DNA of 64,000 nt, from positions 35,493 to 99,492 of the forward strand of contig JAKSMB010000004.1 of NCBI GenBank assembly GCA_024400875.1, in the 5' to 3' direction. Below are positions 7,083-36,592 of this stretch, one piece after another. The first letter of the stretch is position 1, and each line of letters opens with the position of its first letter. Position numbers and translations under genes: made by a program. The notes beneath the pieces were generated by a model, which searched no databases, was not told where the DNA came from, and saw only the letters and a list, made by a program, of their open reading frames with translations. The stretch comes from Bacteroidales bacterium. GTDB lineage: Bacteria; Bacteroidota; Bacteroidia; Bacteroidales; WCHB1-69.

Positions 7083-7988
7083 CTATTGGCGAGTTAACAA
7101 ACCCTTGGTTACGTTTCTTCTAAATCTAAATAAAGCATTTCCCTTATCAAATTGAAAGCGAATAGCAAACCCCATCCATAGTATGATGGTAGCACACCAT
7201 TTTATACACTCGGAGAAAATCCTTTTAACATACTTCATCTTAGAAATCTGGAGCGTACGATAACGTTCACTCACGCCTATTGAATAGGTTAAACGATTAA
7301 AATAGTCGGGCGTAAGTTTCTTTTCTGGAATAATATGGTAGAGGATGGCTGTAGGAAGATAATAGAAATGCATCTTCAGACTTGTCATTTTATCAAACAG
7401 ATCCTTTTCTTCAGCACCTATTAAGCTATTGCCTTTTCGACCTAATTCTACATTGAAAAGGCCTATTCTATCAAAGACAGATTTCCGATAAGCTGCATTA
7501 CCTCCACCAGGGAAACCATTTTTAGGGAATTCTCGTTCTGATTCACCCAGATACAACCTTCCAGTAATCAGCTGACGTGTATAATGTGACATCCAAGTGG
7601 GCTCTTCTGTTTCATAGACAGGAAGAATTGGACCTCCAGCGGCAACCGCAGCAGGATTCTTCTCAAAGAAATCCGAATACGTCTGCAAATATTTATCATT
7701 CACCAACGCATCATCATCAACATATACAAGGATATCGCCTTGGGATTCCTTAATACCTCTATTTCTGGCATACGATAAACCTTGATTTACCTCAACACAA
7801 TAATTGAATTGAACAGCAGGATAATCTGTTTGGAATCTTGAGCATTCTTTTTCAGTATCATCCGTACTATTGTTATTCACCAATACTATTTCATATTGAT
7901 TGGTTGGATATTGGTTTAGAGCAATGCTCTGAAGTACATTGTATATATACTTATCGCGATTATATGTGCAAAGAATTATTGAAAGCAT
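7083..7988 (-). CDS. Glycosyltransferase family 2 (GT-A fold)
   Basis: I chose the ATG at 7988 because the protein then begins MLSIILCTYNRDKY, the normal opening of a GT2 domain, and the gene no longer overlaps its neighbour; the ATG at 8009 is possible. VYVDDDALV carries the DxD motif that binds the metal and nucleotide sugar, and FPGGGNAAYRKSVF is the acceptor-side loop found in this family. Hydrophobic residues near the C-terminus (CATIILWMGFAIRF) suggest a membrane-associated segment. Predicted role: adds a sugar to a surface glycan repeat unit or lipid-linked oligosaccharide. It is the last gene of the glycan cluster and directly follows an unrecognised GT-B-like gene. Confidence 0.88.
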   Translation of the reverse strand: MLSIILCTYNRDKYIYNVLQSIALNQYPTNQYEIVLVNNNSTDDTEKECSRFQTDYPAVQFNYCVEVNQGLSYARNRGIKESQGDILVYVDDDALVNDKYLQTYSDFFEKNPAAVAAGGPILPVYETEEPTWMSHYTRQLITGRLYLGESEREFPKNGFPGGGNAAYRKSVFDRIGLFNVELGRKGNSLIGAEEKDLFDKMTSLKMHFYYLPTAILYHIIPEKKLTPDYFNRLTYSIGVSERYRTLQISKMKYVKRIFSECIKWCATIILWMGFAIRFQFDKGNALFRFRRNVTKGLLTRQ

Positions 7989-7993
7989 AGTTA

Positions 7994-8929
7994 TTAGTCT
8001 CGTTTCCAAGTTCCCCAGTATTCTTCCACTAGTTCAACCTGTTCTTTCGTTATTTCAAATGAAAAATCTCCAAAAGCCTTTTGAATTCGGTCTTCTGCCT
8101 CTATGACACTTTTATGTATCTCAACTGATTTCTTCTTGTCGTCAACATAGTGCATCGGTTGTTTTACAAACCAAACTGGCTTTTTCATACAAACAGAATA
8201 TCCTATATGTGTTCCAATGCCGTTTGTGAGCATTAAGTCTGATAATTGAATTAAATCTTTCTGGCGTGATAAGAAATAAGGATCACTTCTATGACCATTA
8301 CACACGATGTAGAATCCTGCCTTTTTATACAATTCAACCAACTCAGGGCTTTGTTTTATATCCTTCCAATATAAACACAAGAACACACTATCAAAACCAT
8401 CTCGAATTTTTCCAATCTCTTCTATTAAATAATCAGCATCATAGCTTACATTATTATTTTCAAAAGAATGGCACGGATAAACGAGCAGAATCTTTCCATA
8501 TTTACTCTTTATCTCATCAAGTTTATCTTTGTCATAAAAATTTGAAGCACCTAAGATATAAGGTCCAATGGCGTTTACTTTTCTTCCCTTCAGACCGTTG
8601 CGTTTGAGGTAACCTTCTATTACCTCTTTACGTCTATTTCCAAATGTATAGATATTCTTTATCAGCGGACGATTCACATAGCCCATTGTTCTTGCAGATT
8701 CAATAGTCTCCGTAAAACAAAGTCCATGCTCTAGATAATCTGTTATGAGATTAAATCTTTTACCCGTTAGAGCCTTAAGAGCCTTGAGGTTGCCATACAA
8801 AAACACACTGTTAAAATGCTTTGGAGGTGTAAAGTCCTCGCTCGTTAACTCTTGATAATGAAAGAAATCAAGCGACTGGCACCTTATGACTTGTTTAGAA
8901 TAAACTAATACTGATTTTAAAAAACTCAT
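7994..8929 (-). CDS. Unrecognised protein, GT-B-like, in glycan cluster
   Basis: I do not recognise this 311-residue protein by family. It is soluble, without signal peptide or membrane helices. Residues about 145-160 (KYGKILLVYPCHSFENN) have the beta-strand-loop pattern that opens a Rossmann half. DLMLTNGIGTHIGYSVCMKKPVWFV near residue 235 resembles the segment where polysialyl-, poly-alcohol-phosphate and Kdo-type GT-B transferases bind nucleotide (a surveyed site followed by G-T-H-x-G-x-A and K-P-V). I infer a capsule glycosyl- or glycosyl-phosphate transferase; this is inference only. It has its own promoter and is followed closely by the GT2 gene. If the operon upstream makes a CMP-sugar, this protein is a plausible user of it. 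Confidence 0.6.
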   Translation of the reverse strand: MSFLKSVLVYSKQVIRCQSLDFFHYQELTSEDFTPPKHFNSVFLYGNLKALKALTGKRFNLITDYLEHGLCFTETIESARTMGYVNRPLIKNIYTFGNRRKEVIEGYLKRNGLKGRKVNAIGPYILGASNFYDKDKLDEIKSKYGKILLVYPCHSFENNNVSYDADYLIEEIGKIRDGFDSVFLCLYWKDIKQSPELVELYKKAGFYIVCNGHRSDPYFLSRQKDLIQLSDLMLTNGIGTHIGYSVCMKKPVWFVKQPMHYVDDKKKSVEIHKSVIEAEDRIQKAFGDFSFEITKEQVELVEEYWGTWKRD

Positions 8930-8969
8930 AACATCTATTCGTACTGAAAATACTTTATATAACTTTCTG

Positions 8970-8977
8970 CAAAAATA
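8970..8977 (-). promoter_or_regulatory. -7 promoter element (GT-B-like/GT2 transcript)
   Basis: Minus-strand TATTTTTG matches TAnnTTTG and lies 40 bases before the start at 8929. It separates this two-gene transcript from the three-gene operon upstream. Confidence 0.6.
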
Positions 8978-9046
8978 CAGAAAATATCGCTATTGTTTGT
9001 CGCTACGCAGACATCCTAAATAACATCCTGCAACTAAAACAAACCA

Positions 9047-9703
9047 TCATACAATCAACGAAAAGATTTCATTCACCTTCTTAGCGCAGCCAATATTGGG
9101 ATACTTATCCACATCTTCCCGAGAGGTGAAGCCAAATCCATATGTAACGCCTAAGAAATCAACACCTGCCTCTTGAGCACCTATTGCATCGTGTAGCGTA
9201 TCTCCTACCAAAACAGCATTATCTTTCAAACCATTCATTTCAGAGATGCACAGATTTACGATATCCACTTTTTTCAACTGGTTTTTATCGTCTGCGCCAC
9301 GCATAACATCAAAATAGCGATCAAAACCAAAATGTTTCAGGATCATCAAAGCATAATCCTCTCGTTTATATGTTGCTACCGCCAACCGTTTTCCAGCGTC
9401 CTTCAATTGCTTGAGCAACTCAAATATTCCTTCATACGGTTTTGCTTTCAACAATGCTTTTTCCTTATAGTAAGTTCTGAAAATTGTAGATATTCTTTGA
9501 GCCTCCTCTTCCGATAATCCATAATGATTAACAAATGAGATCTGTACCGGTGGACCAATAAAGGAAAGCAATTGTGCATCACTTAACTCCGGCAGTTTCA
9601 TTTGTCCTATTGTGTATCTCACACTTTCAACAATACCCTCTGTTGTATCCAACAACGTACCATCTAGATCAAAGATTATGGTATTCTTATTTTTTTGATT
9701 CAT
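9047..9703 (-). CDS. HAD-superfamily phosphatase (phosphoglycolate phosphatase-like)
   Basis: The 218-residue protein begins with IIFDLDGTLLDT, which contains the nucleophile D12 and the acid/base D14 of haloacid dehalogenase phosphatases. An alpha-helical C1 cap follows. AVATYKRED is motif II, a Lys precedes motif III, and VGDTLHDAIGAQEAGV supplies the metal-binding Asp residues. It overlaps the end of the aldolase gene by 17 bases, so the two are translationally coupled. In the context of a pyruvate aldolase and a CMP-transferase, a likely job is to dephosphorylate a sugar-acid phosphate before activation, as KdsC does for Kdo-8-phosphate. KdsC itself is a shorter, cap-less HAD, so this would be an analogue rather than an orthologue. 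Confidence 0.85.
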   Translation of the reverse strand: MNQKNKNTIIFDLDGTLLDTTEGIVESVRYTIGQMKLPELSDAQLLSFIGPPVQISFVNHYGLSEEEAQRISTIFRTYYKEKALLKAKPYEGIFELLKQLKDAGKRLAVATYKREDYALMILKHFGFDRYFDVMRGADDKNQLKKVDIVNLCISEMNGLKDNAVLVGDTLHDAIGAQEAGVDFLGVTYGFGFTSREDVDKYPNIGCAKKVNEIFSLIV

Positions 9704-11291
9704 ACAGTGAAGGCGTTAAAAATTCTATATCAATTTCTGATGAAAGTTTCTCCAACTCTAACATTATCAACTCATTATTATGAATTGAATAACTTTCATT
9801 GCCAGCATAAGACAACGAGCTATCAAAATAATTTTCTCCCGTTGAAAATCCATCAAAACCAGCAAGGGTTACTTTATCAACACCTGCTCTCATCATTGCA
9901 GACAAACAGAGCAACAAAGCATTATCACTCTTTATCCCTCCAATCTGCATCAAAGATCGATAATTCAACGTAATATCTGCCGGCCTATCAAATGGGATGA
10001 CATTGGACGTAATCATTATCTTGGAATCTGAATTCTGCTGGCTATAAGTATCCATCAACTTGCTATATCTTTTCGCATTGCTAACAAACACATAATGACA
10101 ATCATACATATCTGATACAAAGTTCGTAGATATAATTATCGCTGCCTCATCTTTAATAAACTTTGATATGACATCTTGATACTCTCGAATGCTTTTTCCA
10201 GGACCTAGCAGTAAAATTTTTTTCCCTTTAAGTTCCTCCTGCAAACAAGAAACTGAAAGTTCATCATCTATAATTGTACTTTGATATTGGATATAAGATT
10301 CCTCTATGAATTGCTTATCATAATGAAGCTTTTTCTCTTCTGGTATAGTTGCCAAAATTTCATTGACAGCACTTATTGCTAGCGTTTTTTTGTCCAAAAG
10401 ATATTGAACATAATTTGGATGACAATTCTGCAATGCTGAGATATAGAAATTATACTTATACCCCCAATATTGTTTTTGATATACTGGCATCAAATCCGCA
10501 TCCAACACTTCCAAGAATTGGTTAATGTCATACTGTTTTCCATAGTATTGATTTAAATGCATGGATAATAGCTCAATAGGACAATTTCCTGCACTTTTTC
10601 CCATTCCATACACAGTTGCATCCACCACAAGCTCACGATTTGAATTTTGAGCTAAGAAATCTATTGAATTACTAAATGCTAACTGGAAATTGTTATGAGC
10701 ATGGTAACCTAACACAATATCGGAATCCAGGTTCGTATCAATAAGATCATAATAATGAGCCATCCTTTTCTTATCCAATAATCCGTAGGTATCTACAATA
10801 GAAAAAACATCCGGCTTTATTTCATTAATTTTTTCAATATATTGCAACATATCCATATCTGAATACGCCGTAATGGAGATTGCCTGGATAAACAATTTAT
10901 ATCCTTTATCTTTTATAGCCTTGCAAAAAGGAAGAGCCTGCTCAATTTTTTCTTTCTTGAAAATCACTCGAATGCCATCAATAAACGTGGAATCACAAGT
11001 TCCTATATTTTCCAAAGAACACGTTCCAAAATCAATCATGGCAACAGGGATGGCATGTTTTTTTTGAACATTCTTGAAAATTCTATTGAAACCTTCTGTA
11101 TTCGGTGTAATCGTTCGGTTTATATCAAAGGGGCGTCTATCATCAAGAAAACCAACTTCAATATAATCGACGCCAGAAGCATCCAGTTTTTTATACGTTC
11201 CAGTAATTACGCTATGTCCAAATTCCCAATCATTGATATAACCACCATCTCGAAGGGTGCAATCGAGTAAACTAGCTTTCTTTGCAAACAT
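9687..11291 (-). CDS. HMGL-type aldolase fused to a Rossmann-like domain
   Basis: Residues about 8-320 form an HMG-CoA-lyase/4-hydroxy-2-oxovalerate aldolase barrel. LLDCTLRDGGY holds the catalytic R14 and metal ligand region, GYHAHNN holds metal ligands H197 and H199, and VYGMGKSAGN is the glycine-rich loop. Such aldolases join pyruvate to an aldehyde with Mn2+, giving a 4-hydroxy-2-keto acid, the core chemistry of ulosonic acids. Residues about 350-530 are a second domain starting KGKKILLLGPGKSIREY and containing VTLAGFDGF. That pattern recalls the nucleotide-binding fold of DUF115/MptE or GT42 sialyltransferase proteins. Family aldolases are usually about 300-350 residues, so the extension is unusual. 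It lies 2 bases after the cytidylyltransferase and overlaps the HAD gene. Confidence 0.82.
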   Translation of the reverse strand: MFAKKASLLDCTLRDGGYINDWEFGHSVITGTYKKLDASGVDYIEVGFLDDRRPFDINRTITPNTEGFNRIFKNVQKKHAIPVAMIDFGTCSLENIGTCDSTFIDGIRVIFKKEKIEQALPFCKAIKDKGYKLFIQAISITAYSDMDMLQYIEKINEIKPDVFSIVDTYGLLDKKRMAHYYDLIDTNLDSDIVLGYHAHNNFQLAFSNSIDFLAQNSNRELVVDATVYGMGKSAGNCPIELLSMHLNQYYGKQYDINQFLEVLDADLMPVYQKQYWGYKYNFYISALQNCHPNYVQYLLDKKTLAISAVNEILATIPEEKKLHYDKQFIEESYIQYQSTIIDDELSVSCLQEELKGKKILLLGPGKSIREYQDVISKFIKDEAAIIISTNFVSDMYDCHYVFVSNAKRYSKLMDTYSQQNSDSKIMITSNVIPFDRPADITLNYRSLMQIGGIKSDNALLLCLSAMMRAGVDKVTLAGFDGFSTGENYFDSSLSYAGNESYSIHNNELIMLELEKLSSEIDIEFLTPSLYESKK

Positions 11292-11293
11292 AC

Positions 11294-12022
11294 CTATTTT
11301 GTATTTATTTTTGAAAGTACCACCTCAAGATCTCTCGGGGTGTCCACAGAAAGAGATTCTGAATCAACAAGTTTATACTTTATATGTATCTTATTCTCCA
11401 AAAAACGCTGCAAAGTGACATCTTCCACTGATTCCAAAAATCCTTTTGGTGTATTTACAAAGAAATTTAAAGCATTTTTGTTATAACACTCAACGCCAAC
11501 AACCTTTTTATATTTGAACTTCACAGTTTTATATGGAAATGGAACCGGAGATCTAGACAGCAACACACATTCCTCCTTATCATTTGTCACGATTTTAATA
11601 TTGGCAGGATCCATCACTTGTGCAGGATCTGTAAAATACCTACATAAACCTCCGACATACATTTCTTCACTATTCTCTTGCGGAACTGCAGCACGAATTG
11701 TGTCAGGATCAATCAATGGTTCATCGCCACACACTACCAAATAATAATCAGCAGAAATTCTTTCACTTACTTCGTGAATTCTATGCACGTGCGTCGGATG
11801 GTCGTTTCGCGTCATCACAACCTGCATGCCATATTCCTCGCACACCTTTTGGATTCTATCGTCGTCTGTGGCTACGAAGACCGCTGACAATTCAGGGACC
11901 TTCATCACCTGTTGGTACACCCACCATATCATGGGTTTGCCGCAAATATCTGCCAAAGGCTTGCCTGGAAATCTCGTGGACTGGTATCGTGCAGGAATCA
12001 CACCAATGATTTTCTTTTCCAT
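11294..12022 (-). CDS. KdsB-like CMP-sugar-acid synthetase (cytidylyltransferase)
   Basis: I chose the ATG at 12022 because the promoter element at 12040-12047 lies downstream of the alternative ATG at 12085. The 242-residue protein then begins MEKKIIGVIPARYQSTRFPGKP, the CTP-binding loop of CMP-Kdo and CMP-sialate synthetases. VCGDEPLID near residue 100 and SVDTPRDLEVV near the C-terminus are also family motifs. The segment NDHPTHVHRIHEV (from residue 73) differs from the H-x-S-G-T-D/E-R segment of true KdsB enzymes, so the substrate may not be Kdo. Reaction: CTP plus ulosonic acid gives CMP-sugar and pyrophosphate. It is the first gene of a three-gene operon with the aldolase and phosphatase. 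Confidence 0.85.
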   Translation of the reverse strand: MEKKIIGVIPARYQSTRFPGKPLADICGKPMIWWVYQQVMKVPELSAVFVATDDDRIQKVCEEYGMQVVMTRNDHPTHVHRIHEVSERISADYYLVVCGDEPLIDPDTIRAAVPQENSEEMYVGGLCRYFTDPAQVMDPANIKIVTNDKEECVLLSRSPVPFPYKTVKFKYKKVVGVECYNKNALNFFVNTPKGFLESVEDVTLQRFLENKIHIKYKLVDSESLSVDTPRDLEVVLSKINTK

Positions 12023-12039
12023 TTCTTTTTGATTTTTTG

Positions 12040-12047
12040 CAAAAATA
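12040..12047 (-). promoter_or_regulatory. -7 promoter element (cytidylyltransferase operon)
   Basis: Minus-strand TATTTTTG matches TAnnTTTG, 17 bases before the chosen ATG. Its position argues against the longer start at 12085. Confidence 0.6.
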
Positions 12048-12090
12048 CAACTTTTACACGCACAATTCTTACGCGTTTTCAACAAAAAAT

Positions 12091-14343
12091 CTACCGAATC
12101 ACCGTTATGCTCGTATGGGACGTCAACACTTTTTTACCCGTTAGAAGACATTGATAATCAACCACACCATAATACACGCCATCTGCATCCCGCTCTGCAG
12201 TCCACACAACATGATCAACACCACTTGTTTGGTACACCTTTTGGCCCCACTTGTTGTATATCGTCAGTTCCATACTGCCGAAGTCACCTTCCAACAAAGG
12301 AACAAACACATCATTCACTCCATCCCCATTAGGTGTTATCACATTCGGTAACGTTAACGTGCAAGGTCTTCCATTTAAAGAGACCGTGTTGTCTAAAAGA
12401 TCACATTCGAACGTCAACCCACCGTCCTGTGCAATACCATACCCAACGTTATTAGCAATTATGGCTATCGGGAAGGGCACCTCTTTTTGCTTTAATTCGG
12501 TTTGGGAATAGGTAATTGTCAGTTCTGCACATTCACCAGCATGTAGTTCCTCGGCAATCGAATCCACTCGGAACAAACTTCCATCACCCAAAAAAGTTGC
12601 TATATAAATTGGCGGGTAAAACGTTTCGTCTTCCGTATTGCACAGACTCAATTCCACGTTTATCTCATCACCATCAAATTGCACTTCCGAGCGCTGTTCC
12701 AGCCGTAGGTTTGCCATTGTTCCCATTGGTCGTCCATATTGGTCCATCCACGTGGTTTGTTGAAGAAAGTTGTTAAATGGACGGCGAACCTGAGCTGTTG
12801 GATCCACAAATGCCGTGGCATTATCAAACAATGGTGTTGGCACCGTTAGATCCTTATTGATATTGGTCACATTGTACATATACTGATTCCACACCGGACG
12901 TGCTGGGGGCCACGGGATATCACCCGCCAAGATGTTCAGTTGACCGCCCACCCAGCCCATTCCATTAGCTGTTTTTCCAGCCACAACAATCTCCGCTGCA
13001 CCGTCGCCATTAATATCCGCCACCACCGGATATTCGTTCCACGTTCCTGCATACATCGGGTAAGTGTACAGATTGTAGCAGCCCAACGTATCATTTCCCG
13101 TTATATGGCTTTTCCCGCTTCCATTCATCACTCTCAGATGTGACATATCACGATATACGATTTCGGGAACCTCATCCCTATTGAAATCAAACAGTGTCAT
13201 AGACGTTTGCGCCGATTCATCCGAATGGGATATTCTCCAACACTCGGAAAGGCCAACACCTGGCGTATATTTCTTCGCAACAATTCTTGACGAAGTCACC
13301 GGTGTTACATAGTATATATATATGAATTCAACATTCCCATCCCCATCTATATCTCCAACTGCTGGATAACCGACATCCTTTGAGAACTCTCCATGCACAA
13401 ATAGAAGTTCTCCACTAATCGGATCATACGCATAAAGGTACGTCGTATCTAAATAAGTATTCGCGGTAAACGTGCTGATGACCATAACGTCCAGGTTGCC
13501 ATCCAAATTAAAATCCGCCACAGCAACATGGCCATCCTGATGAATCCTATCCGGCAACGAGATTTTCTTCAGCAATTGTATCGAATTCTGAGTGGCATCT
13601 GTTCTACTTTGTATAGTAACTTCGTAAATACTATTTCCGCAAATCAACTCAGGTCTTGAATCTCCTAACACATTTGCCGCAAACGACATAACCACATGTG
13701 CTCGTTCGGTGGACTGTCCACGCCAACTACGTCCACAATTCACAGACGCATCGCCCGCTATCAGGCATTTCAACGTAGCAGCATCATAGATTGCATTTCC
13801 CACATACAACTCCGGATAACCATCTCCGTTAAAATCTACCACAGAAATCACGCCATCAAAAGGTGTTGCCACATCCGACTCATTGAGAAACTGCCCTGAG
13901 ACATCATACGATCTCAACTTATTGTCAATACAATGAAGGATAATAGCGCCTTGCATACCTCCATTTTGGGTAGGATAACGCACCAATGCCACGGCGCCCA
14001 CAAATCCCGAATACACTTTTTGAGGAACATTAATAGTGCCAACCCTGTTCAAATCTGTTCCTCTATAAATGGCTAATTTATTCGTATAATGGTCATTTTG
14101 TGTGGGCACACCCACCACTATTTCAACAACACCATCGCCATCCACATCCCCCACCATGGGTGTGTAATACGTATGCACATCATCTGTCACCCCCATACGA
14201 TGTGCCGACCATGGTGTTTGAAGCGGTGTAGCATAACAATCTTCATAAGCCATATTATCTGGCAGAGAAGTCTGAGCTACAACTACTGAGGTGTACACCA
14301 TAATAATGAGAAATACCCAAAAAGAGAATATTTTGTCCATCAT
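12091..14343 (-). CDS. FG-GAP/VCBS repeat protein with T9SS type B sorting domain
   Basis: The 750-residue protein has an N-terminal signal peptide ending VVVAQ. Several calcium-binding FG-GAP/VCBS blades follow, recognisable by D-x-D-G-D loops (DVDGDGVVEI, DFNGDGYPEL, DIDGDGNVEF, DINGDGAAEI), which indicate a beta-propeller of the integrin-alpha type. A beta-sandwich stretch follows. The last 85 residues are a gliding-motility-associated type B sorting domain: PNVITPNGDGVNDVF, YNKWGQKVY, DGVYYGVVDY. Type B proteins are exported by T9SS and attached to the surface, usually with a PorP/SprF-like partner; none is adjacent here. Likely role: surface adhesin or scaffold. Start could be either of two consecutive ATGs (14343 or 14340). 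Confidence 0.9.
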   Translation of the reverse strand: MMDKIFSFWVFLIIMVYTSVVVAQTSLPDNMAYEDCYATPLQTPWSAHRMGVTDDVHTYYTPMVGDVDGDGVVEIVVGVPTQNDHYTNKLAIYRGTDLNRVGTINVPQKVYSGFVGAVALVRYPTQNGGMQGAIILHCIDNKLRSYDVSGQFLNESDVATPFDGVISVVDFNGDGYPELYVGNAIYDAATLKCLIAGDASVNCGRSWRGQSTERAHVVMSFAANVLGDSRPELICGNSIYEVTIQSRTDATQNSIQLLKKISLPDRIHQDGHVAVADFNLDGNLDVMVISTFTANTYLDTTYLYAYDPISGELLFVHGEFSKDVGYPAVGDIDGDGNVEFIYIYYVTPVTSSRIVAKKYTPGVGLSECWRISHSDESAQTSMTLFDFNRDEVPEIVYRDMSHLRVMNGSGKSHITGNDTLGCYNLYTYPMYAGTWNEYPVVADINGDGAAEIVVAGKTANGMGWVGGQLNILAGDIPWPPARPVWNQYMYNVTNINKDLTVPTPLFDNATAFVDPTAQVRRPFNNFLQQTTWMDQYGRPMGTMANLRLEQRSEVQFDGDEINVELSLCNTEDETFYPPIYIATFLGDGSLFRVDSIAEELHAGECAELTITYSQTELKQKEVPFPIAIIANNVGYGIAQDGGLTFECDLLDNTVSLNGRPCTLTLPNVITPNGDGVNDVFVPLLEGDFGSMELTIYNKWGQKVYQTSGVDHVVWTAERDADGVYYGVVDYQCLLTGKKVLTSHTSITVIR

Positions 14344-34106: not shown

Positions 34107-36592
34107 CCATTTCTGAAATTTGTTTCATCACCAAGCCCATTGAAAGAAGCATTGCCAACGACCAAAAATACATCCAAGAGTTATGTATTGACAGTCGGCA
34201 GGTTCAGCATCCAAGTGAAACATTGTTCTTTGCTTTCAAAACAGAAAAAAACGATGGGCATCGTTTCATTGCAAGCCTGATACAGCGCGGTGTACGCAGT
34301 TTTGTGATTTTGAGGAAGATATCAGAGCTTACAGAACAACTTCAACAAAAAGGAATCACAAAAGAGGAGATTGCCTCCTGCGACTTCATCTCCGTTGCGG
34401 ACACCACGAAAGCCTTGCAAACCATCGCCCAACATCATCGCGAGGAGTACAACTGTCCGGTTGTTGGTATCACCGGCAGCAATGGTAAGACCATCGTCAA
34501 GGAGTGGCTCGCAAGCATCGTTTCCGAAGACTTTAACGTAACGTGCAGTCCGAACAGCTACAACTCCCAATTAGGCGTTCCCCTCTCCGTATGGCAGATG
34601 GTTGAGCAAACGGAAATCGCCATCTTTGAAGCAGGCATATCACAACCCGGCGAGATGAACAACCTCGCAAACATCATCCACCCCACCTTAGGCATACTGA
34701 CCAATGTGGGCATGGCTCACGCGCAGTTCTTCGAAAGCCAACAACAGAAAATCCGGGAAAAGCTGAGATTGTTTCAGAATACTCAGGCACTCATATATCA
34801 CAACGACAACGAAGAAATCAACAAGATACTTGCTGAACCCGAATATAACCACCTACGAAAAATATCTTGGGGCGACCCTCGGGCTACCTATCCCGTTGTT
34901 TATCGACATATCGACCACAATCACACATTGTTAACCATTCAGAATCAAGAATTCTGCATTCCTTTCCTGGATGCGGCCTCCATCGAGAATGCCATTCACG
35001 TGATTGTAGCCGCTCTCGAGTTGGGTATCGCATCAGACAATATCCGTCAACGTTTGCTACGCCTTACACGTATCAACATGCGTACCGAAATCCTGGAAGG
35101 CATCAATCACTCACTAATCATCAATGATACCTATAGCTTGGACATAAACTCATTGCGTGCTGCACTTGACTTTTGGGATACCCAGAACCAATTGACATCC
35201 AAGACCATCATCCTATCTGATTTTGATCAAGTGGGCGAGCTTGGAACGGATGATTACAAGCAACTGAACACCTTGCTGAAAAAGCATCACGTCAACACAC
35301 TCATCACCATAGGATCTGATTTTCAACAACATCGAAACTGTTTTGACATTGACAACGTGTTGACCTATACGGATACGGAATCCTTACTTCAGCGGTTGCC
35401 AGAGCTGGATTTCTCCTACCAATCCATCTTGATAAAGGGAGCGCGTATCTACCATTTCGAAAAGATCGTAAACCAACTTCAGCACAAGACCCATCTTACC
35501 ATCTTAAATGTCAGTCTGCCCGCCATCGCTCACAACCTCAATTACCATCGTTCCCTGTTGAAACCCGAAACGAAAATGGTAGCAATGGTGAAAGCTCATT
35601 CGTATGGCTTAGGTGATGCCGAGTTGGTAAACGAGCTCATCCACCAGAACATTGACTACTTGGCGGTGGCCTATACCGACGAAGGCGTGCGCCTACGCAA
35701 ACGTCACATTCAAACCCCTATCATTGTTTTGGGTGCCGAAGCTCACAGCTTTGACGTGATGGTGCAGCACAACCTCGAACCAGAGATTTTCAACTTTTAC
35801 TATCTATATGAATTAGAAAAAGTGTTGAAGCGCTATCCGCAAATCACGCATTTCAACATTCATATCAAATTAGACACCGGCATGCATCGACTTGGGTTCG
35901 ACGAGCAAGACCTGTCAAAGCTCATCAACATTGTAAAAGCAAATCCGCAGTTACGCATTGCCTCCATCTTCTCCCATCTGGCAGCCTCCGAAGATGCCAA
36001 CGAAGACGCATACACCTTGCACCAAATCGAGTTGTTCAAGCGGATGACCGAAACAATATGTCAGGCCTTTGATTATCCAATCTTGCGACACATCCTGAAC
36101 AGTGCCGGCATCGTTCGGTTCACCGAGCACCAACTAGATATGGTTCGATTAGGTATTAGTCTTTACGGGTTCTCCAGTCTGCCAGACGTACAAGCCAACC
36201 TTCAGAACGTAGCCACGTTGAAGACCGTCATCACGCAAGTGAAAACGATAGCTGCCAGCGAGACCATCGGCTATAACCGCAGCTATCGCGTATCACGAAA
36301 CACGCAGGTGGCCATCATCCCCATCGGCTATGCCGACGGCTATCCACGCGAGCTATCGAATGGTAAGGGAACGGTCATCATTCAAGGACAGAAAGTTCCC
36401 GTCATCGGAAAGATCTGTATGGATATGTGTATGTTAGATGTCACGGGACTCACCGTACACGAGGGCGACGAAGTAATCGTTTATGGGGAAGGCAACACCG
36501 CCGCTGATATGGCAAAAGCCGCCGGGCTTATCAGTTACGAGCTGCTCACCCGCATCTCGCAACGCGTGCCAAGAGTTTACATTAAAGAATAA
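34103..36592 (+). CDS. murF: Bifunctional MurF ligase / alanine racemase
   Basis: The 829-residue protein is a fusion. Residues 1-460 are MurF: GITGSNGKTIVKEW (P-loop, 122-131), MNNLANIIHPTLGILTNVG and the C-terminal Mur domain. MurF adds D-Ala-D-Ala to UDP-MurNAc-tripeptide. Residues about 465-829 are alanine racemase: MVKAHSYGLGD has the PLP lysine K497, IGYNRSYRVS has the second catalytic Tyr near residue 724, and CMDMCMLDVTG is the C-terminal substrate loop. It makes D-Ala, the precursor of MurF's dipeptide substrate. The same fusion is known across Bacteroidetes, so it is not novel. Overlap with aroK indicates translational coupling. Confidence 0.95.
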   Translation: MTISEICFITKPIERSIANDQKYIQELCIDSRQVQHPSETLFFAFKTEKNDGHRFIASLIQRGVRSFVILRKISELTEQLQQKGITKEEIASCDFISVADTTKALQTIAQHHREEYNCPVVGITGSNGKTIVKEWLASIVSEDFNVTCSPNSYNSQLGVPLSVWQMVEQTEIAIFEAGISQPGEMNNLANIIHPTLGILTNVGMAHAQFFESQQQKIREKLRLFQNTQALIYHNDNEEINKILAEPEYNHLRKISWGDPRATYPVVYRHIDHNHTLLTIQNQEFCIPFLDAASIENAIHVIVAALELGIASDNIRQRLLRLTRINMRTEILEGINHSLIINDTYSLDINSLRAALDFWDTQNQLTSKTIILSDFDQVGELGTDDYKQLNTLLKKHHVNTLITIGSDFQQHRNCFDIDNVLTYTDTESLLQRLPELDFSYQSILIKGARIYHFEKIVNQLQHKTHLTILNVSLPAIAHNLNYHRSLLKPETKMVAMVKAHSYGLGDAELVNELIHQNIDYLAVAYTDEGVRLRKRHIQTPIIVLGAEAHSFDVMVQHNLEPEIFNFYYLYELEKVLKRYPQITHFNIHIKLDTGMHRLGFDEQDLSKLINIVKANPQLRIASIFSHLAASEDANEDAYTLHQIELFKRMTETICQAFDYPILRHILNSAGIVRFTEHQLDMVRLGISLYGFSSLPDVQANLQNVATLKTVITQVKTIAASETIGYNRSYRVSRNTQVAIIPIGYADGYPRELSNGKGTVIIQGQKVPVIGKICMDMCMLDVTGLTVHEGDEVIVYGEGNTAADMAKAAGLISYELLTRISQRVPRVYIKE

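Follow-up and report, generated by a model that had tools for sequence, protein, structure and literature searches.

A 64,000-nucleotide stretch of a Bacteroidales genome (assembly GCA_024400875.1, contig JAKSMB010000004.1, forward-strand positions 35,493 to 99,492; hereafter the window) carries on its minus strand a trio of adjoining genes encoding a KdsB-like cytidylyltransferase (KdsB′), a long aldolase of the HMGL/DRE-TIM superfamily with an extra C-terminal domain, and a HAD phosphatase. As judged from sequence comparison, the trio probably constitutes a self-contained module for the synthesis of a cytidine monophosphate (CMP)-activated 3-deoxy-2-ulosonic acid that dispenses with a phosphoenolpyruvate (PEP)-dependent synthase. 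CMP-activated sugar acids—sialic acids, 3-deoxy-D-manno-octulosonic acid (Kdo) and their kin—are known from PEP-dependent synthases, and the best reading of the trio is a variant form of CMP-ulosonate biosynthesis in which another kind of enzyme makes the carbon–carbon bond. The parts of the trio are as follows (aa, amino acids):

11294..12022, minus strand: KdsB-like cytidylyltransferase KdsB′, 242 aa from ATG (alternative TTG start at 12085)
9687..11291, minus strand: HMGL/DRE-TIM aldolase with C-terminal extra domain, 534 aa
10509..11273, minus strand: HMGL-like catalytic domain of the aldolase, residues 7-261 (Pfam and residue alignment)
9690..10265, minus strand: extra C-terminal domain of the aldolase, residues 343-534, weakly MptE-like or GT42-like
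9047..9703, minus strand: HAD phosphatase, phosphoglycolate-phosphatase-like, 218 aa

The cytidylyltransferase gene is followed by a 2-base gap (11292-11293), the aldolase gene, a 17-base overlap (9687-9703) and the HAD gene. This layout, together with the assignment of each gene to its family, had been proposed in a first-pass annotation made from the DNA letters and their open reading frames, and is confirmed by the open reading frame coordinates and by Pfam (CTP_transf_3, E = 1.6e-41, for the cytidylyltransferase; HMGL-like, E = 3.4e-20, over residues 7-261 only, for the aldolase; HAD_2, E = 2.4e-39, for the phosphatase). The GC contents of the three genes (40.2, 34.0 and 38.1% for cytidylyltransferase, aldolase and HAD) lie below the 44.8% of the window, and the AT-rich trio might fit a cassette that has moved. 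The window genome is 51% complete. Numbers with the prefixes G and L denote the genomes and loci compared.

Enzymes of the trio

Scores, alignment and phylogeny indicate that the window cytidylyltransferase is not an ordinary KdsB. The enzyme falls below the cut-offs of the kdsB equivalog TIGR00466 (132.3 versus 155.2 bits) and of PRK13368 (231.9 versus 255). Its closest solved structure is the CMP-Kdo synthetase 1gq9 (KpsU). The window enzyme finds matches in 94 of 104 genomes of the same family; full-length matches with identities of 49-63% occur, besides the window enzyme itself, only in G017, G024 and G049, in each of which the gene adjoins a long aldolase, and the remaining full-length family matches are 31-42% identical. 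Each of these three genomes also holds a second, ordinary KdsB on a separate contig, while in the 51% complete window genome only the trio's own enzyme was found. The possibility, raised at the outset, that the enzyme is the sole, Kdo-specific KdsB of its genome is thus contradicted in G017, G024 and G049, where it is a paralogue without the ordinary signature; for the window genome the same would hold by analogy. In a phylogenetic tree, all eight aldolase-linked KdsB′ enzymes form a single clade, a side-branch of KdsB with a support of 100/97. The signature at window positions 98, 174, 178, 203 and 204 reads Q, H, Y, E and Q in every one of the 26 other KdsBs of the family included in the alignment (out of 94 places that do not belong to the special clade, with loci drawn from the best 30 of 98 matching places) as well as in five further ordinary KdsBs inspected beyond the alignment; none of the eight aldolase-linked enzymes carries any of these residues. 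These five positions presumably contact Kdo directly in ordinary KdsB. Residues R12, R17, K21, D100 and D227, on the other hand, are kept in all 34 aligned KdsB-type sequences, the window's included. For the Aquifex enzyme, residues 100-210, which make up the C-terminal domain, are described as Kdo-binding, and the counterparts of the five kept residues as binding cytidine triphosphate (CTP) and Mg (PMC3149649). The window KdsB′ is proposed to be a CMP-ulosonate synthetase.

Some further observations concern the distribution of KdsB-type genes. The KdsB′ genes of L096 (478-1251) and L111 (6103-6876) are nearly identical although the two loci belong to different families of the order, which suggests a recent transfer. 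A scan of viral contigs with the cytidylyltransferase returned no relative; plasmid matches are 33-37% identical, seven of the eight records being named kdsB. At L134 (17-2963), a KdsB occurs with an aminotransferase-like and an oxidoreductase-like gene, a set that we take to resemble an 8-amino-Kdo cluster.

The window aldolase passes PF00682 (73 bits versus a cut-off of 29), and R14, D15, H197, H199 and N236 are invariant in all 29 aligned relatives; we assume that they represent the R-D, H-x-H and N functional residues of the HMGL/DRE-TIM superfamily. When the aldolase profile was compared with characterised structures, 4-hydroxy-2-oxovalerate aldolases of the DmpG type matched best (E = 5e-27), and Claisen-type synthases matched more weakly (isopropylmalate synthases, 3e-16; citramalate synthase, 2e-17). 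DmpG-type enzymes are the nearest characterised relatives of the catalytic domain; the window protein nevertheless differs from them in missing the corresponding equivalog TIGR03217 by far (67.3 versus 286 bits) and in bearing the C-terminal extra domain. The closest solved structure, PDB 3dxi (E = 2.8e-32 to the window protein and 3.8e-140 to the profile), is a chain of 320 residues that aligns with the HMGL part alone and whose molecule name, 'Putative aldolase', gives no function. The enzyme is proposed to be a pyruvate aldolase producing a 3-deoxy-2-ulosonic acid. Since the superfamily also holds catabolic enzymes and Claisen-type synthases that consume acetyl-CoA, the aldolase might instead be one of these; this is very improbable given that pyruvate aldolases are its best matches among characterised structures and that its recurring neighbours are nucleotide-sugar and glycan genes. 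In the window, a glycosyltransferase and an unassigned protein are encoded nearby, which speaks against a purely catabolic substrate.

Searches beyond cellular relatives of the aldolase gave partial matches on plasmids (eight records, none covering 80%) and phages (one record, 40%), and none in E. coli DNA. L037 and L038 (8007-11171 in both), from a Gastranaerophilales and a near-identical uncultured bacterium, hold a 1054-aa fusion of an HMGL aldolase with a GT2-like part beside split transketolase genes.

For the extra domain of the window aldolase, Pfam gave nothing better than E = 0.059. PF01973 (MptE-like) is matched at E ≤ 0.01 by seven of 18 related long aldolases; in another Pfam comparison, two of 29 extra domains match it, the window domain not being one of them. 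Conversely, when 247 genomes were searched with PF01973, two such proteins came up, both below the curated cut-off and each in a trio of HAD, NeuA-type and aldolase genes. The best PDB matches of the extra-domain profile are all weak (MptE, E = 0.024; SteA-like, 0.025; sialyltransferase Cst-I, 0.07), and a search for PF06002 (GT42) in 295 genomes found no match even in controls and is hence uninformative.

Pfam and NCBIfam assign the window HAD enzyme to phosphatases resembling phosphoglycolate phosphatase, and its closest solved structures are HAD phosphatases. The KdsC model TIGR01670 (cut-off 107 bits) is absent from the top 25 of 28 NCBIfam matches, the last of which scores 22 bits; at L097, a KdsC-type HAD (137 bits) takes the place of the window's type. 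The window enzyme is proposed to act as a ulosonate-phosphate phosphatase.

Recurrence of the trio and exchange of its parts

Within the window's own family, 14 of the 104 genomes, the window's included, match the aldolase at E 1e-20, and the surroundings of all 14 were read. A PF02348-type cytidylyltransferase lies beside the aldolase in nine of them (window, G008, G009, G017, G021, G024, G027, G028 and G049); the other five (G003, G022, G048, G059 and G088) have an acetolactate-synthase-like, thiamine diphosphate (ThDP)-dependent gene instead, with CDP-sugar genes in all but G048. A HAD gene is present at each of the nine cytidylyltransferase-type loci: of the window kind in six, of another subtype in G049, and of the KdsC type in G021 and G028, which feature a short aldolase and a split ThDP gene. 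Of the nine, the window, G017 and G024 have a KdsB-like cytidylyltransferase and G008, G009, G021, G027 and G028 a NeuA-like one; G049 has both types. Parts are replaced even within one genus, where KdsB-type enzymes (window, L095, L096) alternate with NeuA-type ones (L093, L097, L098, L132, L133) and the HAD is either phosphoglycolate-phosphatase-like or of the KdsC type. By family assignment, the same predicted functions are thus filled by different protein families, a KdsB-like or NeuA-like cytidylyltransferase together with a varying HAD. The genes around the trio bear on this exchange:

7994..8929, minus strand: 311-aa protein downstream of the trio, without Pfam or NCBIfam match
7083..8009, minus strand: GT2 glycosyltransferase, its gene overlapping that of the 311-aa protein; borders the cassette site on one side in several genomes of the same genus
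12091..14343, minus strand: FG-GAP/CHU_C secreted protein upstream of the trio; the other edge of the cassette site

Homologues of the FG-GAP and GT2 genes flank the cassette in L097, L098 and L132; one of the two landmarks is found at L093, L095 and L096, and neither at L133. Different sugar genes lie between these edges from genome to genome, and the region 7083-14343 resembles a site of glycan variation whose cassettes can be exchanged.

Wider searches matched 30 of 393 genomes of the order (E 1e-40) and 10 of 395 of the phylum (E 1e-60); at most three candidates per genome were scored, so that sites may have been missed, and some loci end at contig ends. Order- and phylum-wide sites together with those of the family make up a Bacteroidota set of 52 loci. 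Aldolases of at least 480 aa are termed long, the partial L005 included; in the genome scan described below this class also takes in L037 and L038, whose extra part is GT2 and not the domain discussed here. L134 was entered via KdsB and stands outside the aldolase counts; L065 repeats L134, L159 and L167 comprise the same genes as L176 and L177, and each was counted once. In the Bacteroidota set, a PF02348 cytidylyltransferase is encoded no more than 5 kb away and on the same strand for 19 of the 22 long aldolases; for 18 of these a HAD gene is there as well, and the other three long aldolases have a ThDP enzyme as neighbour. The NeuA, HAD and ThDP profiles were partly trained on genes of the same loci; Pfam, as an independent check, matched all 25 cytidylyltransferases and all 18 HADs submitted to it. 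Short aldolases linked to chorismate mutase, which served as a control, have a cytidylyltransferase or ThDP partner in none of 21 cases. The linkage of aldolase and cytidylyltransferase exceeds chance, the 19 linked rows not being independent (seven stem from the window's family, and L170 and L171 from one genome). Conservation of the trio, on which the first-pass annotation had made its reading depend, is borne out by the co-occurrence of all three functions at 18 of the 22 long Bacteroidota loci and at L004. In the phylum sample the module is found in eight of the 395 genomes besides the window's; it is scattered, not common, in Bacteroidota.

The control loci had themselves been considered as members of the same pathway and were rejected as a separate setting (one of the 21 neighbours was Pfam-checked). 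At these 21 loci, located among L114-L142 and stemming from many genomes of the order, an HMGL aldolase of 315-332 aa adjoins a gene of about 100 aa for a type II chorismate mutase; the one at L114 is isochorismate-lyase-like, below cut-off.

A scan of GTDB genomes with the window protein yielded 44 loci, 43 of them with an aldolase by profile (L045 without). Three long aldolases of this set have a cytidylyltransferase neighbour: L003 (Agathobacter), L004 (Bacteroidales) and L005 (Lachnospiraceae). The full trio is present only at L004; L005 is truncated where its contig stops, and no HAD gene lies within 5 kb at L003. At L033 (Clostridiales), a short aldolase touches a NeuA-type gene. In Bacillota, ThDP genes resembling acetolactate synthase are the usual partners of the aldolase, and of the trio only the pair of aldolase and cytidylyltransferase is seen, at the three loci L003, L005 and L033. 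A tree of 67 catalytic domains groups the window aldolase with L003, L004 and L005, at all three of which KdsB′ is present, and the cytidylyltransferase setting takes five changes across the tree, at least four of them forced by well-supported branches. The tree lacks 28 of 95 rows: 25 were excluded by a motif filter (17 within L114-L142, and L041, L097, L098, L099, L100, L113, L128 and L131) and L014, L030 and L036 were removed by hand.

Competing partners and rival readings

A number of findings weigh against a dedicated CMP route. Of the 32 long aldolases of the GTDB scan, 26 lie beside a ThDP gene and only three beside a cytidylyltransferase (L003 is in both counts; four have neither partner, and 15 have a HAD). 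At L003 the cytidylyltransferase is 4.2 kb from the aldolase and the ThDP gene adjoins it, and both partners likewise occur together at L097, L098 and L113. The extra domain is present in both settings, no HAD lies near L129, and aspects of the KdsB comparison and of the neighbouring synthases, taken up below, point the same way. As a correction to the first-pass annotation, the aldolase family is not exclusive to CMP pathways. Binding of a nucleotide or sugar nucleotide by the extra domain would, as a guess, fit both settings. In L097 (5144-6777), L098 and L113, two separate genes encode the ThDP enzyme (with products of 175 and 369 aa at L097); they adjoin a short aldolase together with cytidylyltransferase and HAD genes of the NeuA and KdsC types.

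The ThDP genes beside the aldolase, carried for instance by Anaerovibrio slackiae (L006), belong to the acetolactate synthase family, below the equivalog cut-off. Because of this membership and because RfbF or RfbH lies within 5 kb at 14 of the 26 ThDP-linked loci, they are probably YerE-like. For two characterised enzymes of the YerE-like kind, ErwE and MMAR_2332, a preference for hydroxy-2-oxo acids is reported (PMC12247030), and such acids would be the expected products of an aldolase of this kind. One aldolase family could plausibly supply 3-deoxy-2-keto acids to two users. These neighbourhoods favour a reading in which the window aldolase, too, feeds a hydroxy-2-oxo acid to a YerE-like enzyme acting on a CDP-4-keto-sugar, the cytidylyltransferase being unrelated; loci with both partner kinds (L003) or with a split ThDP gene and a NeuA-type gene (L097, L098, L113) are in line with it. 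We regard this branched-sugar route as improbable for the window, where neither ThDP nor RfbF nor RfbH was matched. With the ThDP protein of L027 as query and E 1e-20 as threshold, no match came up in the window genome, 51% complete, or in five genomes of the same genus whose aldolases are linked to a cytidylyltransferase, G008 (97% complete), G009 (63%), G017 (91%), G024 (84%) and G027 (98%), and the user of the window aldolase product is therefore most likely the cytidylyltransferase. In G003, G022 and G088, by comparison, the ThDP match sits at the aldolase locus; a 105-residue ThDP fragment (72%) occurs in G049, and L004 and L005 belong to genomes with matches of 29-31% on other contigs. 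Compared with the YerE-like pathways to yersiniose, erwiniose and caryophyllose, the window trio has in common a homologous long aldolase that, often with a HAD, lies beside ThDP genes at many loci; in those pathways the product joins a CDP-4-keto-sugar by ThDP chemistry, whereas the trio would use CMP activation. A lead towards mycobacterial caryophyllose gave no aldolase information in the literature checked.

KdsB′ might also make ordinary CMP-Kdo, or a relative such as 8-amino-Kdo, with aldolase and HAD making a separate sugar. The family name speaks for this, as does the NCBIfam Kdo cytidylyltransferase subfamily NF003952, which the window enzyme passes (220.4 versus 193 bits); so does L111, where kdsA and kdsD adjoin NeuA-type, KdsB′ and aldolase genes. 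The change of five signature positions in all eight aldolase-linked enzymes, their separate clade, the NeuA-type enzymes occupying the same place in sister cassettes and the lack of matches to KdsA in two Bacillota genomes with KdsB′ and aldolase (G104 and G106, both metagenome assemblies) make it unlikely, if somewhat less so than the branched-sugar route. KdsB-type enzymes at the distant aldolase loci L172 and L173 retain part of the ordinary signature, and that of L112 is divergent in the signature alignment, so that the rule of signature loss is limited to the window's own clade.

With regard to PEP-dependent synthases, no KdsA- or NeuB-type enzyme was found among ten window genes scanned. 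NeuB had no match in nine of ten genomes tested, G104 and G106 among the nine; the KdsA equivalog was found in five of the ten, and not above cut-off in G000, G021 and G049. Contrary to the initial expectation of a three-gene order free of kdsA and neuB, kdsA is present at L111 and neuB at L112. L168 has a gene that looks NeuB-like by eye, some 3 kb away from its aldolase, and in L112 and L169-L171 an aldolase of a second family, HpcH/HpaI, adjoins the HMGL aldolase (one was Pfam-checked). The sugar acid made at L111, L112 and L168-L171 may need two aldolases or a PEP synthase. The HpcH/HpaI aldolase of L170 is nearest to 4-hydroxy-2-oxoheptanedioate and dehydro-deoxyglucarate aldolases, below the cut-offs.

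Proposed pathway and its meaning

The sequence of aldolase, HAD phosphatase and cytidylyltransferase put forward in the first-pass annotation remains the best reading and is supported by recurrence and comparison, each enzyme step being predicted. First, the HMGL domain would add pyruvate to a phosphorylated aldose in a metal-dependent reaction to yield a 4-hydroxy-2-oxo acid phosphate. In a second step, the HAD enzyme would take off the phosphate. KdsB′ would then join the acid to CMP, derived from CTP, and a neighbouring transferase would finally pass the acid to a surface glycan. As no gene dedicated to an aldose phosphate was recognised beside the trio, an aldehyde of central metabolism (glyceraldehyde-3-phosphate or erythrose-4-phosphate) is the best guess for the acceptor, and a six- or seven-carbon acid the tentative, somewhat doubtful, product.

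GT52 and polysialyltransferase families use CMP-sugar acids. Both are matched above the Pfam cut-off directly after the trio of L132, and polysialyltransferase after that of L171; GT52/polysialyltransferase-like matches after L095 and L096 are below cut-off. Recurrence beside glycosyltransferases, as anticipated from the window, thus holds after some trios, while nothing in Pfam matches the genes that follow the trios of L172 (354 aa) and L111 (193 aa), a further point against the proposed route. The window's 311-aa protein has homologues of 43-45% identity in cassettes with NeuA-type enzyme and short aldolase (L097, L098) and is a weak candidate for the transferase of the CMP-sugar acid.

With the Kdo pathway (KdsD, KdsA, KdsC, KdsB), which leads to CMP-Kdo, the proposed route shares the 3-deoxy-2-ulosonic acid phosphate, its dephosphorylation by a HAD phosphatase and the use of a PF02348 cytidylyltransferase for activation; it differs in employing an HMGL aldolase for the PEP-dependent synthase, a phosphoglycolate-phosphatase-like HAD instead of KdsC, and a cytidylyltransferase without the ordinary signature. 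NeuB–NeuA pathways likewise deliver a CMP-ulosonate for a surface glycan, and NeuA-type enzymes replace KdsB′ in sister cassettes; NeuB itself, as noted, was mostly unmatched, though present at L112.

More broadly, there may exist a third, PEP-independent route to CMP-ulosonic acids built on HMGL pyruvate aldolases, scattered in Bacteroidota and reaching into Bacillota. In this picture, for and against which we see the balance as even, the aldolase family would be an interchangeable supplier of 3-deoxy-2-keto sugar acids to CMP activation or ThDP branching, and the MptE/GT42-like domain would bind or even transfer the cytidine-linked sugar. No description of this gene combination was found in the open-access literature; one may exist elsewhere. 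The three enzymes of the trio suit an in vitro assay with pyruvate, aldehyde and CTP. Short glycan-borne ulosonic acids, for instance the 4-deoxy-2-hexulosonic acid reportedly present in E. coli K3, might be connected with this route. If the proposal is true, surface glycans would gain a further class of sugar acids, one that annotation has hidden under the name of Kdo cytidylyltransferase.

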